Positions 5,972 through 19,805 of a stretch of DNA of 48,703 bases are shown one piece after another. Origin of the DNA: Candidatus Nitrotoga sp. BS. Lineage in GTDB: Bacteria > Pseudomonadota > Gammaproteobacteria > Burkholderiales > Gallionellaceae. Made by a program: the position numbers and the translations under genes. The first letter of the stretch is position 1, and every line of letters begins with the position of its first letter. The notes beneath the pieces were generated by a model that did no database searches, was not told where the DNA came from, and saw only the letters and a program-made list of their open reading frames with translations. The DNA is taken from positions 1 through 48,703 of the forward strand of contig NZ_CAKMLL010000066.1 in NCBI RefSeq assembly GCF_927797785.1, read 5' to 3'.

Positions 5972-7803
5972 TCAAAAATTGGCACGTACCCCCATAAGAA
6001 AGCCACGTCCCGGCAATGGGGCGAGCTCCTTCAGGAACGAGGTATGTGCTCGTGCTTCTTGGTTGAAAAGATTGTTGCCCTTGATGTACGCATCCCAGTT
6101 AACAGATTGTGTCTTAAAGCGGTAGTTCAACATGACGTTGGTCAGCGTATAGCTGCTGGTAGGTAATTCGTTTGCTGCAACTCGATCCTGCTTGAAAGAA
6201 TGGGCGACGTCGAGCATTGCACTGAACTTACCAAGCTGGTAGTCAAGACCGGCGCCAAGCCGCATTGGAGTAATACGGGGCAATGGCTCCCCCGTGTCGC
6301 TATTCTTCGCCCGCACATAGTCACCGCGCAAATTGAGATTGAGATTACCTTTTTTCTCATATATCCGGAATTAGCTTTCAGCTTCAAAACCATAAAATTC
6401 AGCTTTTACCGCGCGAAATAAAGCCTCTGGAAGCTCTGCCTGCTCCTGACCACTGTTGATCAACGCAATGTAGTTCTGGAAACGTGTGTAGTGCACCCAA
6501 AGCACCACTATTGGCTGAAAACTTGCGCTCCTGGGGTGCGCCAAATCGGGTTGATGTGGGGCTATTTCCGGCTGAATCTACCGTGGTATGTTCGTTACGC
6601 CCTCCTGCAGTAAGCTTGATGTCACCGAATTTGGCTTCTTCATAAATGTAAAGTGCTTTGGAATTAGTATTTGAAAGCTGTACGCCGAAGGCACCGGTGA
6701 GTGGCCCCAGCTTGGCGTGGGTTGCGTCTATCCGTGTTTCATATCCTTTGTTTTTGAATGTCGTTGCAATTTCACCATCCTCCAACTCATTGTGCAGGTA
6801 GTCCGTATGGTTATATTTGAATTTCACTTCTTGAACGATCGTGCCCAGCTCACGGATCTCTCCCGCCACACCTATCCGTTTACTGTTCATGTCAACGCGC
6901 ACGTCCGGTTCCGCTACTGTGCCGTAGTTTGATTGTAAGTCGCTGTATGAAAGACCGAGATACCCCTTGTCCAAGGTGAGGGCGGCACCTAATGCGGCGC
7001 TATCGCTCTCCGATGAGCTGTTAATCAGGCGTCCCCGGGTTTGTTCAACTGCGGGATCATCCAGAGCACGCTGTCGATCTGATCGCGCAAAACCGGGAAT
7101 ACGGAGGTCGTCAGTTCGACGTGAAGCGACGTCTGCGTGGAGTGCGACCAGGCCATTGCCGGCTTCGAGCACGGCTGCACCACTGCGTTCATTTGCGGCT
7201 CCGCCTATCCGTGGTTCAACGCGGCCCGTGTAGCCATTGATTGGAAATTGCGGAATGCGGTTGTCGAGCGTGTTCACGACACCTCCAACTGCGGCACCGC
7301 CATACATCAGGGCGGCAGGGCCGCGCACCACTTCGATCCGATCTACCACTAGTGGATCTACGGCCGTAGCATGATCAAAGCTCAAGGCCGAAACATCAAG
7401 CATACCAATGCCATTTTGCATTATCCGAACACGATCACCATCGAGGCCTCGAATAATGGGACGACTCGCGTTCGGCCCAAAGTAGGTGGAACTTATACCG
7501 GGAAGTTTGGAAAGCGTTTCACCTAACGTGCTCTCTTGTCGGAACGATAACTCTTTTCCGCTTAGCACAGAGACTGGGGATACCAGATCAAACAGGGCGC
7601 TTCCCAGCGGGTTGGCGGTAACTACAATCTGTGGCAATAAAACTGCTTCATTTGCTAATTGATCAATAACCGGTTGTAAGGTAACGGGAGAGGCGATTTC
7701 GGCCGCGTGCGCAACAGAAAGTGTAGCGACACTCAGAAACAGCGAAGATAGTAAACTAGGTTTTTTAGTCTTGGCAGGTGTAATTAGCGGCGCGCGCAGC
7801 GGC
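5972..7803 (-). pseudogene. Decayed ZnuD-like TonB-dependent receptor (copy 1)
   Basis: This is nearly identical in nucleotide sequence to the intact receptor gene at 16500-19013 from its stop up to about 7617, but it is broken in three ways. A 48-bp in-frame deletion lies at 6670/6671, between AGTATT direct repeats in the intact copy. A 212-bp frameshifting deletion lies at 6490/6491. A TAA replaces a Lys codon at 6371-6373. Its 5' end differs: a plain signal peptide (LFLSVATLSVAHA) followed by a short linker, without the PEGA-like domain of copy 2. No clear start codon is in frame; an ATGATG pair near 7810 is out of frame at a GC-rich repeat. It sits at the end of the zinc operon, just after the DUF2946-like gene. 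Confidence 0.9.
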
Positions 7804-7859
7804 GCGCCATCATTCTGTTAGAAAAAGTTGCACTTCGTTGTTGAATCCGCGAGGCAGTC

Positions 7860-14188: not shown

Positions 14189-14323
14189 CTATTGATCAAA
14201 ACAGATGGTTTACTATTCTTGACAGAATAAAACTGCGAATTAACCTAAGAAAAAATTCTGCATTCCAAGCTAATCCATTTCAGTAACACATAAACTTTAC
14301 TTTTTTTATGGAAAACAAAAGTT

Positions 14324-14376
14324 ATGCAATAATGTTGCATTATAGCCACAAAAAAGGTTATGCAACATTATTGCAT
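14324..14376 (-). promoter_or_regulatory. Probable Zur-controlled promoter of the ZIP gene with two operators
   Basis: Two 17-bp palindromes, ATGCAATAATGTTGCAT (14324-14340) and ATGCAACATTATTGCAT (14360-14376), are inverted relative to each other. On the minus strand a TTGCAT -35 box (14360-14365) and TATAAT -10 box (14339-14344), 15 bp apart, lie within or against them, so a bound dimer would block polymerase. Assignment to Zur is inference from context. Confidence 0.6.
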
Positions 14377-14386
14377 AACCTTTTTT
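14350..14386. terminator. Bidirectional Rho-independent terminator after zur
   Basis: The stem GGTTATGCAA / TTGCATAACC with loop CATTA (14356-14380) is flanked by an A-run on the left and a T-run on the right, so it has a U-tract in either direction. It lies 19 bp after the zur stop. Its stem is also one of the two operator palindromes. Confidence 0.75.
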
Positions 14387-14404
14387 TAATGAAGTGAGAT
14401 TGAA

Positions 14405-14967: not shown

Positions 14968-15471
14968 TCAAGAAGGAGAAACCAACCGTGCACCGCGTGA
15001 AATTTCTTGTAACAAATCGGTACGCAATGATTCAGCGAATTCTGCATCGCGAACTACTAGGTTAACTTCGCGCGCCAACAATCGACTGAATGGATCTACA
15101 TTAGATGAACCGACGGTTGCCCAATAGCTATCTACCACGGCAACCATAGCATGCATAAAACTGGCCTGGTATTCGTAAATTTCCATACCTGCTCGCAATA
15201 GTTCGTCATAAATTGCACGTGTGGCAAAGTACTGCAGGCGGTATCCCACCCGCCCTTGCAATAGCAAGACAATGCGCACTCCACGTCGAGCCGCATTTAG
15301 CAAAGCATCGCGGAAGTGTATTCCAGGTAGAAAATAGGCGTTGGCAATGATGATCTATTGCCGCGCATCGGCAATAGCTTTGAGATAGGGTCGTTTAATG
15401 GCGTTACGATGCCGCAGGTTATGACACAACACTAAAGCCACTTTGTGTTGCTCGGTATACTTGTGCGCGGG
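14968..15471 (-). pseudogene. Cardiolipin synthase (phospholipase D family) fragment
   Basis: The minus frame reads as the C-terminal part of a ClsB-like enzyme: NLRHRNAIKRPYLKAIADARQ, an in-frame TAG (15355-15357), then IIIANAYFLPG, the ARRGVRI segment and HAMVAVVDSYWATVGSSN. The second HKD motif is changed: the catalytic Lys is Met (HAM for HAK, a single-base change). The N-terminal half and first HKD motif are absent. The upstream end, near 15471, runs into an in-frame TGA. It is dead by truncation, nonsense mutation and loss of the catalytic residue. Confidence 0.85.
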
Positions 15472-16499: not shown

Positions 16500-19013
16500 T
16501 CAAAAATTGGCACGTACCCCCATAAGAAAGCCGCGTCCCGGCAGTGGGGCGAGTTCCTTCAGGATCGATGTATGTGCTCGTGCTTCTTGGTTGAAAAGAT
16601 TGTTGCCCTTGATGTACGCATCCCAGTTAACAGATTGTGTCTTAAAGCGGTAGTTCAACATGACGTTGGTCAGCGTATAGCTGCTGGTAGGTAATTCGTT
16701 TGCTGCAACTCGATCCTGCTTGAAAGAATGGGCGACGTCGAGCATTGCACTGAACTTACCAAGCTGGTAGTCAAGACCGGCGCCAAGCCGCATTGGAGTA
16801 ATACGGGGCAATGGCTCCCCCGTGTCGCTATTCTTCGCCCGCACATAGTCACCGCGCAAATTGAGATTGAGATTACCTTTTTTCTCATATATCCGGAATT
16901 TCCCTTCAGCCTCAAAGCCATGGAATTCAGCCTTCACCGCGCGAAATAAAGCTTCCGGAAGTTCTTCCTGCTCCTGACCACTATTGATCAACGCAATGTA
17001 GTTCTGGAAACGTGTGTAGAAACCACTGATACTTGCCGAATGAGGACCCGAGCGCCAGCGCAGTTGCAAATCAGCACCGTTCGATTTCTCCTTCGAAAGC
17101 GTTGTGTCACCCACTTCAAACTGTCCCGTTGCTACATGCCTTCCGTTTGCGAATAGCTCGGCATACGTCGGCACACGTTCGGTGTGCGAAAGATTTGCAG
17201 CAAGGCTAACATTCTGATCGAAGGTATAGAGTGCACCCAAAGCACCACTATTGGCTGAAAACTTGCGCTCCTGGGGTGCACCAAAGCGGGTTGATGTGGG
17301 GCTATTTCCGGCTGAATCTACCGTGGTATGTTCGTTACGCCCTCCTGCAGTAAGCTTGATGTCACCAAATTTGGCTTCTTCATAAATGTAAAGTGCTTTG
17401 GAATTAGTATTCACTTTCGGTACAAAGGCTTCTTCGCCGAGTGCCACAAAATCAGTATTTGAAAGCTGTACGCCAAAGGCACCGGTGAGTGGTCCCAGCT
17501 TGGCGTGGGTTGCGTCTATCCGTGTTTCATATCCTTTGTTTTTGAATGTCGTTGCAATTTCACCATCCTCCAACTCATTGTGCAGGTAGTCCGTATGGTT
17601 ATATTTGAATTTCACTTCTTGAACGATCGTGCCCAGCTCACGGATCTCTCCCGCCACACCTATCCGTTTACTGTTCATGTCAACGCGCACGTCCGGTTCC
17701 GCTACTGTGCCGTAGTTTGATTGTAAGTCGCTGTATGAAAGACCGAGATACCCCTTGTCCAAGGTGAGGGCGGCACCTAATGCGGCGCTATCGCTCTCCG
17801 ATGAGCTGTTAATCAGGCGTCCCCGGGTTTGTTCAACTGCGGGATCATCCAGAGCACGCTGTCGATCTGATCGCGCAAAACCGGGAATACGGAGGTCGTC
17901 AGTTCGACGTGAAGCGACGTCTGCGTGGAGTGCGACCAGGCCATTGCCGGCTTCGAGCACGGCTGCACCACTGCGTTCATTTGCGGCTCCGCCTATCCGT
18001 GGTTCAACGCGGCCCGTGTAGCCATTGATTGGAAATTGCGGAATGCGGTTGTCGAGCGTGTTCACGACACCTCCAACTGCGGCACCGCCATACATCAGGG
18101 CGGCAGGGCCGCGCACCACTTCGATCCGATCTACCACTAGTGGATCTACGGCCGTAGCATGATCAAAGCTCAAGGCCGAAACATCAAGCATACCAATGCC
18201 ATTTTGCATTATCCGAACACGATCACCATCGAGGCCTCGAATAATGGGACGACTCGCGTTCGGCCCAAAGTAGGTGGAACTTATACCGGGAAGTTTGGAA
18301 AGCGTTTCACCTAACGTGCTCTCTTGTCGGAACGATAACTCTTTTCCGCTTAGCACAGAGACTGGGGATACCAGATCAAACAGGGCGCTTCCCAACGGGT
18401 TAGCTGTAACGACAACCGGCGGCAAAAGAATAGCTTCATTTGCGGCTCGCTCTGTAACTACAACCTGCGACGGCACAATGACGGGAGAAGTGGTTGCAGC
18501 CGAGGAATTTACGAAAACAGGCGACGGAATGACAGGGCTGGCAATGGCAAAGCTAGTGGGTGGAATCGACACAATTTCTGGCTTGCTTTCCGTCCCTAAC
18601 TTCTTCAGCTCAGCTTGCTCCAAGCTTAGCCGCCTGAATTGAAGCTGTTTGCCTTCGGCATTAAGCTGCGCATCACCTAATAGAACTTTGACATGTTTTT
18701 CCACGCCGCTACCCACTCGGATTTCATGCTCAAATTCACGAGCACTAAAAGCATCAACTTTCTTTTGAACTTTCAGCCTCAAATTGCCAGGGAGAACTTT
18801 TATATCCAATGGGCATTTCCCCTTGAATTGGCCGTTGATAAACACTTCGGCGCCCACATCCTCATCGTTGCAAGTAATACTCAAGATGGAACCAGCCGCG
18901 TGTACGTTAGCGGATGCCGCGAAAGCCAAGAATAAAAAAGGTATTAAATAAACTGATTTCCTAGTTGCGCCATAGGTGAATAGCGCCGCCCAGAATATGA
19001 CGTGCATAAACAT
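16500..19013 (-). CDS. ZnuD-like TonB-dependent receptor with N-terminal PEGA-like domain (copy 2, intact)
   Basis: The 837-residue outer-membrane protein has a signal peptide ending near residue 39. A PEGA-like beta domain follows (about 42-112; GAEVFINGQFKGKCPLDIKV, two Cys at 48 and 67 that could form a disulfide), then a Pro/Ser/Val linker and a TonB-box-like VVVTA (about 200-204). The plug contains LGETLSKLPGISS and RPIIRGLDGDRVRI, and the 22-strand barrel ends in terminal Phe. Plug motifs resemble the zinc receptor ZnuD, and the zinc locus supports that, although the His-rich loop of ZnuD is not evident. A GGAGAG site lies five bases before ATG 19013. It follows the DUF2946-like gene by 50 bp. 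Confidence 0.9.
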   Translation of the reverse strand: MFMHVIFWAALFTYGATRKSVYLIPFLFLAFAASANVHAAGSILSITCNDEDVGAEVFINGQFKGKCPLDIKVLPGNLRLKVQKKVDAFSAREFEHEIRVGSGVEKHVKVLLGDAQLNAEGKQLQFRRLSLEQAELKKLGTESKPEIVSIPPTSFAIASPVIPSPVFVNSSAATTSPVIVPSQVVVTERAANEAILLPPVVVTANPLGSALFDLVSPVSVLSGKELSFRQESTLGETLSKLPGISSTYFGPNASRPIIRGLDGDRVRIMQNGIGMLDVSALSFDHATAVDPLVVDRIEVVRGPAALMYGGAAVGGVVNTLDNRIPQFPINGYTGRVEPRIGGAANERSGAAVLEAGNGLVALHADVASRRTDDLRIPGFARSDRQRALDDPAVEQTRGRLINSSSESDSAALGAALTLDKGYLGLSYSDLQSNYGTVAEPDVRVDMNSKRIGVAGEIRELGTIVQEVKFKYNHTDYLHNELEDGEIATTFKNKGYETRIDATHAKLGPLTGAFGVQLSNTDFVALGEEAFVPKVNTNSKALYIYEEAKFGDIKLTAGGRNEHTTVDSAGNSPTSTRFGAPQERKFSANSGALGALYTFDQNVSLAANLSHTERVPTYAELFANGRHVATGQFEVGDTTLSKEKSNGADLQLRWRSGPHSASISGFYTRFQNYIALINSGQEQEELPEALFRAVKAEFHGFEAEGKFRIYEKKGNLNLNLRGDYVRAKNSDTGEPLPRITPMRLGAGLDYQLGKFSAMLDVAHSFKQDRVAANELPTSSYTLTNVMLNYRFKTQSVNWDAYIKGNNLFNQEARAHTSILKELAPLPGRGFLMGVRANF

Positions 19014-19063: not shown

Positions 19064-19387
19064 TTATGCAACTTCTTGGAGAAGGCTGGGCGGGCCGCGC
19101 GCAATGGCTTGAAGGGGTTGGTTTGAACGGAATGTAGTGGTGTTAAACCGTACCGTTCCGCTCGGAATGGTGATCGCTACGAATGAATGGGGAGAACTGC
19201 CAAGTACACCGCCCAGCTGTGTGTAAGCAGCGCAGTGTCCACACGCCGATGATTGTGGTGCGTGCTTGTCATACGGCTGATCTTGTTTAGCAAGAGCATG
19301 ATGTAGAGCATGCATAGCGCCACCTTGCTGAGCAAAGAACAGCAGCAAGATAAGCAACAGCGGGAAAATGGCGCGTGAAAATTGCAT
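19064..19387 (-). CDS. DUF2946-like small exported protein (copy 2)
   Basis: The 107-residue paralogue of the protein at 7860-8183 starts at ATG 19387, with GGAAG six bases upstream. It shares the hydrophobic N-terminus (MQFSRAIFPLLL), a His-containing segment (MHALHHALAKQDQPYDKHA), a CGHCAAYTQLGGVLG motif and the tail ARGPP. Extension to a TTG at 19426 is possible. It is probably co-transcribed with the intact receptor and may hand over or sense the receptor's metal; this role is inferred. Confidence 0.75.
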   Translation of the reverse strand: MQFSRAIFPLLLILLLFFAQQGGAMHALHHALAKQDQPYDKHAPQSSACGHCAAYTQLGGVLGSSPHSFVAITIPSGTVRFNTTTFRSNQPLQAIARGPPSLLQEVA

Positions 19388-19805
19388 GATGCTTCCAACC
19401 TTAACAAAGATTGAATGTTGGTGCAATACAAAATCTCAACTTAATGTAATGCCGGCCGATAACAATTTCATGCTTGGCAAATGTCCCGTCTCACCTAAAG
19501 AAGCAGATCCGATAGTGAAGAATAAGGTCAATGCCGAGACTAATCGTTTATATTTTGACCGTGGCCGCCAGTACTGTAGCCGTGAATCCAAAAATACATG
19601 GTGAATACGCCATGTAAAGCCAGATGTTAGACGATGGATGATGCGACTAACTGGCTTACTAGCTACAACCACATTAATGACGTCACTAGAAGCTAAGGTA
19701 TGTTAGCTAGATGCAGTAAGAGCAAAAGTGGTATGCGGTACTGTTGAAAAATACAGTTTTACGAGCGCCTTAACTTAACTACAAAACAAGCTGAAAGTTC
19801 AAATA
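19388..19805. other. Divergent intergenic region between receptor operon and chemoreceptor gene
   Basis: About 420 bp should hold promoters for both directions. No copy of the ATGCAA-TTGCAT palindrome, Fur box or convincing sigma-70 pair was recognised. Confidence 0.4.

Follow-up and report, generated by a model that had tools for sequence, protein, structure and literature searches.

A PEGA-type domain ahead of the TonB box of a ZnuD-like receptor in Candidatus Nitrotoga

What does a PEGA domain do at the N-terminus of a TonB-dependent receptor? The question is raised by a contig of the nitrite-oxidizing bacterium Candidatus Nitrotoga sp. BS (NZ_CAKMLL010000066.1; 48,703 nucleotides, analyzed whole and called the window here), where a minus-strand open reading frame at 16500-19013, a single uninterrupted frame of 837 codons plus stop and free of internal stops, encodes such a receptor. 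To our knowledge, few kinds of N-terminal extension exist on TonB-dependent receptors. A preliminary description had proposed that this intact receptor carries, between signal peptide and TonB box, a PEGA-type beta domain with two Cys followed by a long linker. We report that homology and predicted fold, together with a borderline profile match, bear this out: the extension of about 75 residues is PEGA-type, both Cys and a Ser/Val/Pro/Ala-rich linker are in place, and the combination of a PEGA-type domain with a ZnuD-like receptor is, on sequence comparison, real and conserved in the genus Nitrotoga. Two known kinds are thereby combined in a new way.

The Plug domain (PF07715) and the barrel (PF00593) both score above their Pfam cut-offs, which identifies the protein as a TonB-dependent receptor, and L197 and V201-A204 of the TonB box are invariant among six aligned receptors (alignment A2). 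The extension matches the Pfam PEGA profile (PF08308) at residues 52-84, over profile positions 10-43 of 71 only. Tested against the gathering cut-off of 20.8 bits, the proposed match stood for the excised stretch 40-142 (22.3 bits) and fell short in the whole protein (18.4 bits), and full-length orthologues lie on either side as well (locus L037 passes at 22.8 bits, genome G096 fails at 19.4 bits). The match is more than chance, because a search with nothing but the excised domain retrieves the PEGA stretch of a protein of its own genome at E 1.1e-30 and 57% identity. That protein belongs to a group, which we call PEGA-FGE, that joins PEGA to an FGE-sulfatase-like domain (PF03781). Matches of the query in the genome lie on contigs C78 (two genes) and C50 (two copies within one gene), and the proteins P0002-P0004 carry PF03781 together with PEGA at 33.5, 19.0 and 22.3 bits. 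The homology covers about 95 residues, comprising the sandwich, the Cys pair and a helix stretch beyond it, whereas the C-terminal part is the FGE-sulfatase-like domain instead of a receptor, and PEGA is present twice in one of the three own-genome genes. As judged from these matches, the domain family otherwise heads FGE-sulfatase-like exported proteins in this bacterium and a few relatives. The PEGA-FGE genes of the source genome comprise a tandem pair at L052:5274-7492 and a third, the one in which PEGA occurs twice, at L053:4471-5937.

The predicted fold agrees with this assignment. An AlphaFold2 model of residues 40-145, made from five receptor sequences, reached a mean predicted local distance difference test (pLDDT) score of 82.1 and a predicted template-modelling score of 0.63, and forms a beta sandwich. 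Numbered from residue 40, seven long strands (3-9, 17-20, 23-27, 30-34, 37-48, 51-61, 66-71) and a short eighth (76-78) are followed by a C-terminal helix at 80-101, that is, residues 119-140; a full-length model puts the helix at 119-138. Foldseek ranked first chain Y of 6hif, the Kuenenia hydrazine dehydrogenase complex (E 1.6e-3, template-modelling score by target 0.69, root-mean-square deviation 2.2), with 9k1u (chains B and D) and the carboxypeptidases 2nsm and 1qmu among the other matches, a CnaB domain and transthyretin lower down, and unrelated folds also in the list. This model points to the transthyretin-like class. A viral structure library gave no match at E <= 0.001, its best entry being annotated as a carboxypeptidase regulatory-like protein, and a profile of the domain run against the sequences of solved structures gave chance-level matches only. 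An STN domain (PF07660, of the FecA/FoxA type), which shares the position between signal peptide and TonB box, was considered in place of PEGA and rejected: the receptor has no STN match at E <= 1, and its predicted beta sandwich with a C-terminal helix differs from the STN domain, in which PMC7782687 describes two helical segments.

How widely is the domain kept? Searched with the receptor, genome contigs gave 15 loci, three of which match over all 837 residues at 82-85% identity: L037 and L038 from Nitrotoga and L039 from a betaproteobacterial metagenome-assembled genome (MAG). The fused N-terminus is present in 13 of the 19 genus genomes. It is intact in seven (G000, G095, G096, G103, G104, G109, G111) and lies at contig edges in six, of which G100, G101, G107 and G108 (the last with two such pieces) reach the plug, while in G098 and G099 the contig ends before it and the assignment to a receptor comes from the domain and the tree. 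The remaining six genomes are G097 (72% complete), G102, G105, G106, G110 (3' receptor piece only) and G112. At E <= 1e-60, receptor orthologues occur in 14 of 158 family genomes, all of them Nitrotoga. A tree of 45 domains, which left out near-duplicates and L029, places the 14 receptor domains in one group (support 100/100) that joins the single-PEGA FGE domains (support 90/82, an open fork). This one clade suggests a single capture of the domain by the receptor, probably dating from before the sampled species diverged. The exact fusion joint is not fixed, because the signal peptide of the receptor resembles, by eye, those of the PEGA-FGE proteins and of a second, PEGA-less receptor type alike.

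Selection on the extension bears on the idea that the domain is a passenger, joined by chance and retained as harmless. Among six intact receptors (the divergent G096 left out), the ratio of nonsynonymous to synonymous substitution rates (dN/dS) is 0.30 for the PEGA domain (bootstrap 5-95% 0.17-0.46, 0 of 300 replicates at or over 1), 0.16 for the helix stretch and 0.81 (0.58-1.10) for the linker. A second calculation, again leaving out G096, gave comparable ratios. By this measure the PEGA domain is under purifying selection and the linker hardly so: in six receptors from six species, all of 837 residues, the linker is constant in length and nearly free in sequence. A passenger would fit a domain ratio above those of plug and barrel, and the existence of a paralogous receptor type without the domain. 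It fits poorly with that bootstrap range, with the retention of the domain in 13 of 19 genomes including G096, whose receptor is only 67% identical overall, and with a Cys pair never lost among 46 distinct domain sequences (spacing 18 in 45, 17 in one), and we consider it quite unlikely. In the G096 receptor (L056:3588-6293), part of the linker is His-rich instead of Pro/Val as in the others, and a distant relative in L042 has a His/Asp-rich stretch preceding the TonB box.

We also searched for the architecture elsewhere in the Pseudomonadota. PF08308 matched in at least 116 of 399 order genomes and at least 83 of 397 phylum genomes, and we scanned with Pfam the frames of at least 600 codons (20 of the 22 order matches listed, the window receptor aside, and 20 of the about 70 phylum matches listed). 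Among the matches listed, two of these 40 frames, the order frames L074 and L075, are receptors. For each of them the carboxypeptidase-regulatory family gives the better match to the stretch, at 47.6 and 50.1 bits. PEGA reaches 22.4 bits in L074, above the cut-off, and is not among the L075 matches at E <= 0.001; in the N-terminal pieces of the two it reaches 19.7 and 19.5 bits, below the cut-off. L074 therefore passes as PEGA plus receptor by score alone, and we read it as a cross-hit because the carboxypeptidase-regulatory family scores higher. The two profiles cross-hit in these scans, and we take the families to share one Pfam clan. The other 38 frames contain, PEGA and carboxypeptidase-regulatory domains aside, mostly FGE-sulfatase, kinase, SPOR or TPR domains, or nothing further. 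A receptor profile built here missed L074 and L075; it was too narrow and was not used as evidence. The domain query also matched eight family genomes beyond the genus, all in frames of at most 398 codons, and a profile of the domain itself matched three of the 399 order genomes: its own, G100 (a Nitrotoga contig-edge receptor) and G184 (a 351-codon frame). Within these sampled genomes and frames, L074 aside, PEGA joined to a receptor was not seen outside Nitrotoga. The open-licence PMC literature yielded no paper joining a PEGA domain with TonB-dependent receptors, and none pairing Nitrotoga with TonB, with or without zinc.

What, then, does the receptor carry? Among solved structures, Neisseria ZnuD (4rdr), with homologous plug and barrel, matches the receptor best in sequence, and the best-scoring NCBI family of the receptor is ZnuD (NF038289). 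PMC4557270 lists the ligands of the buried zinc site of ZnuD as H100, E340, H499 and a first ligand; an offset of 14 converts H100, E340 and H499 to the 4rdr chain, and the first ligand, printed D90, finds no Asp at that offset and was read as the Asp adjoining H100. The counterparts D284, H285, E480 and H626 are identical to the ZnuD ligands and invariant in all six receptors of alignment A2. Since these D/H/E/H ligands are kept, zinc is likely the substrate, and the PEGA receptor points to a part of a nitrite oxidizer that is conserved and probably imports metal. The ZnuD ligands and the invariance of the Cys pair could also be taken to mean that the two Cys bind zinc or copper passed on by the receptor. 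We think this very improbable, as the same pair occurs in all 46 distinct domains, 32 of them not on receptors, and two Cys alone make a poor metal site. The periplasm is the compartment of disulfide formation, and the pair would more plausibly staple the domain.

The PEGA domain would most likely serve as a docking module on a tether, and in this it resembles the N-terminal extension of SusC. In this receptor class the N-terminus ahead of the TonB box lies in the periplasm. The mature receptor would thus begin there with a PEGA-type transthyretin-like domain, stapled by one Cys48-Cys67 disulfide; a helix and then a tether of about 55 residues lead from it to the TonB box. Since the PEGA-FGE proteins start with this domain as well, it is simplest to suppose a common partner or site: the domain may dock a periplasmic or wall-associated partner common to these proteins and keep it next to the receptor, while the tether would leave the TonB box free. 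Protein binding by a periplasmic domain of this fold class may have a precedent in RtkS, which binds the periplasmic domain of PpkA (PMC6082577); the Foldseek match 9k1u is titled as the RtkS-PpkA complex, and its matched chain of 76 residues is presumably the PpkA periplasmic domain. We give a probability of about 0.5 to the reading in which a ZnuD-type receptor carries its N-terminal PEGA domain as a periplasmic docking module for a partner common to PEGA-FGE proteins. A bolder version would see in PEGA a new class of N-terminal module, acquired independently by proteobacterial TonB-dependent receptors and serving as an address tag common with PEGA-FGE proteins through which one partner or site binds both. 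This version is speculative and we hold it to be unlikely; if it were true, metal entry would be coupled to the PEGA-FGE proteins.

The nearest functional parallel is the N-terminal extension of SusC (PF13715), likewise a beta sandwich before the TonB box, similar in size and of the same broad transthyretin-like class. The PEGA domain could act as that extension does, in receptor biogenesis or in controlling TonB access, with no specific partner. The extension of Bt1763 is described as 7-stranded and transthyretin-like/Ig-like. When it was removed, with expression at 25-50% of wild type, growth on levan was undetectable after 24 h, a loss whose cause the authors leave open (PMC7782687). The cross-hits of PEGA profiles with the carboxypeptidase-regulatory domains of L074 and L075 would also fit. 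The window domain differs from the SusC extension in having no sequence match to it, a Cys pair, a ZnuD-type receptor and a long extra tether; the receptor gives no PF13715 or PF13620 match at E <= 1, and a close relative in L041 is intact without the domain, so its biogenesis needs none. We therefore judge a SusC-like role rather unlikely. As the account in PMC7782687 assigns no known function to the SusC extension, a separate capture on a ZnuD-type receptor, with an intact PEGA-less sister type in the same genus, offers a natural comparison of what such domains do.

A further possibility is that the domain anchors the receptor to peptidoglycan. SPOR domains, which bind peptidoglycan, occur in six of 20 sampled PEGA frames, and the tether would in principle be long enough to reach the wall. 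The original description of PEGA concerned cell-surface proteins (PMC2447325). The domain itself contains no wall-binding Pfam family, and SPOR, where present, is a separate domain, which makes such an anchor decidedly improbable.

Several observations weigh against docking by a PEGA domain on a zinc receptor. No binding partner of the domain has been identified. Its Foldseek search against the PDB gave no match at E <= 0.001, and folds of this class are very common. Because the full-length AlphaFold2 model is poor (pLDDT 39.4 overall, blocks 41-110 being the best ordered at 68-81), the placement of the domain comes from knowledge of receptor topology. Its dN/dS exceeds that of TonB box plus plug (0.06) and barrel (0.12). 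The ZnuD family score is 360.8 bits against a cut-off of 950, the alignment shows nothing equivalent to the His-rich loop 3 of ZnuD (4rdr residues 256-316), and the vicinity of the PEGA receptor gene has no candidate Zur site. In one MAG, an intact PEGA-less type stands beside the PEGA type (L041 and L039), so receptors of this kind do not in general require the domain.

This second type also accounts for a broken receptor copy in the window: as the preliminary description noted, the copy lacks the domain, but a loss from the pseudogene is not supported. The 5' end of the copy (about 5975-7817) belongs to a different receptor type, which is intact without the domain in L041 (721 codons) and split into two frames in L040. 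In L040 it ends a gene row of FUR-family regulator, ZIP, ZigA, ZrgA, ABC, FtsX, DUF3299 and DUF2946-like genes. The tree of receptor bodies does not decide between loss of the domain in the PEGA-less type and its never having been present there. Three blocks shared by the broken copy and the PEGA receptor are 98.6, 98.4 and 96.4% identical in nucleotides, compared with about 80-89% between the window PEGA receptor and other Nitrotoga receptors and 73-75% to that of G096. The 3' neighbors of the two types seem to have changed places: in the window Sel1 comes after the PEGA receptor and BNR-TlpA after the broken copy, but Sel1 comes after the PEGA-less receptor in L040, and BNR-TlpA after the PEGA receptor in L038, L039, L054, L055 and L056. 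Block identity and exchanged neighbors suggest that the two receptor types have recombined recently. Several other Nitrotoga assemblies have contigs that break off within these receptor genes.

Table 1. Coordinates of the receptor, its parts and neighboring features in the window
Feature	Residues	Position	Strand	Basis
Signal peptide region	1-39	18897..19013	-	From translation; start codon choice uncertain; cleavage VHA|AG assigned by eye, not by prediction program
PEGA-type domain	40-115	18669..18896	-	Pfam excised 22.3 bits, PEGA-FGE homology, AlphaFold2 model
First Cys of conserved pair	Cys48	18870..18872	-	C-x(16-20)-C[PS] in 46/46 distinct domains
Second Cys of conserved pair	Cys67	18813..18815	-	C-x(16-20)-C[PS] in 46/46 distinct domains
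Post-domain helix stretch, also in PEGA-FGE proteins	116-140	18594..18668	-	Models, homology, dN/dS 0.16
Ser/Val/Pro/Ala-rich linker	141-196	18426..18593	-	dN/dS 0.81; pLDDT <50
TonB box region LPPVVVTA	197-204	18402..18425	-	Position and motif by eye
Plug domain	213-316	18066..18377	-	PF07715, 73.6 bits
Beta-barrel region	324-837	16503..18044	-	PF00593 149.4 bits at 389-806; ZnuD 4rdr best PDB match
Counterparts of ZnuD buried zinc ligands in plug	Asp284-His285	18159..18164	-	phmmer vs 4rdr
Counterpart of ZnuD E340	Glu480	17574..17576	-	phmmer vs 4rdr
Counterpart of ZnuD H499	His626	17136..17138	-	phmmer vs 4rdr
DUF2946-like small protein, directly upstream of receptor		19064..19426	-	19.6 bits, cut-off 23.7; orthologues elsewhere pass
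Broken second-type receptor copy, PEGA-less, internal deletions		5975..7817	-	Block identity
Two palindromes TTATGCAA-N5-TTGCATAA		14322-14342, 14358-14378	.	Repeat search; 1 and 0 mismatches

Do the neighbors point to a partner? Two associations that the preliminary description had raised did not survive comparison. A DUF2946 gene precedes the PEGA receptors of L038, L039, L055 and L056 and also the PEGA-less receptor of L040, and in the window the broken PEGA-less copy likewise has a DUF2946-like stretch ahead of it (79.9% over 334 nt); preceding both receptor types, DUF2946 is not supported as a specific partner of the PEGA domain. A link to ZrgA and the COG0523 protein ZigA fared no better. 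ZigA (E <= 1e-100) occurs in eight and ZrgA (E <= 1e-10) in seven of the 19 genus genomes. Among the 13 with a PEGA receptor, seven have both genes and six neither (G095, G096, G103, G108, G109, G111), which does not support the association, and the receptor lies near a ZrgA/ZigA operon in two of the eight loci whose flanks were read (the window and L040).

Elsewhere, the PEGA receptor adjoins an MlaA-like gene (L038, L039, L054, L055, L056). BNR-like and TlpA-like genes follow it directly in L056 and after one more receptor in L038, L039, L054 and L055; the interposed receptor is one common 779-residue protein in L038, L039 and L054 and another in L055. Neighbors were named by eye, with Pfam checks for MlaA (L038), DUF2946 (L038, L039, L055, L056) and the extra receptors (L054, L055). 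The setting of L037 differs, the receptor coming after TonB-ExbB-ExbD-like genes, and L040 ends within the gene.

The two palindromes in the window lie between a FUR-family gene and a ZIP gene (14313-14387), before ZIP-ZigA-ZrgA, and by this position are candidate Zur operators. The window holds no further match to the pattern with at most three mismatches. Genome-wide, the same tolerance gives 29 places against 13 for a reversed control, and the 27 places outside the window all have two or three mismatches. A Zur-box consensus was dropped, having 10 matches in the window against 10.8 expected.

Two further features of the window were seen. A frame at 2-1183, running past the window edge, encodes a Lys/Ala/Glu-rich, by eye TolA-like protein with near-perfect repeats. 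At 14968-15303, a 111-codon frame resembles the 3' end of a phospholipase D/cardiolipin synthase-type gene, a likeness judged by eye against L037 and L041, and is probably a remnant.

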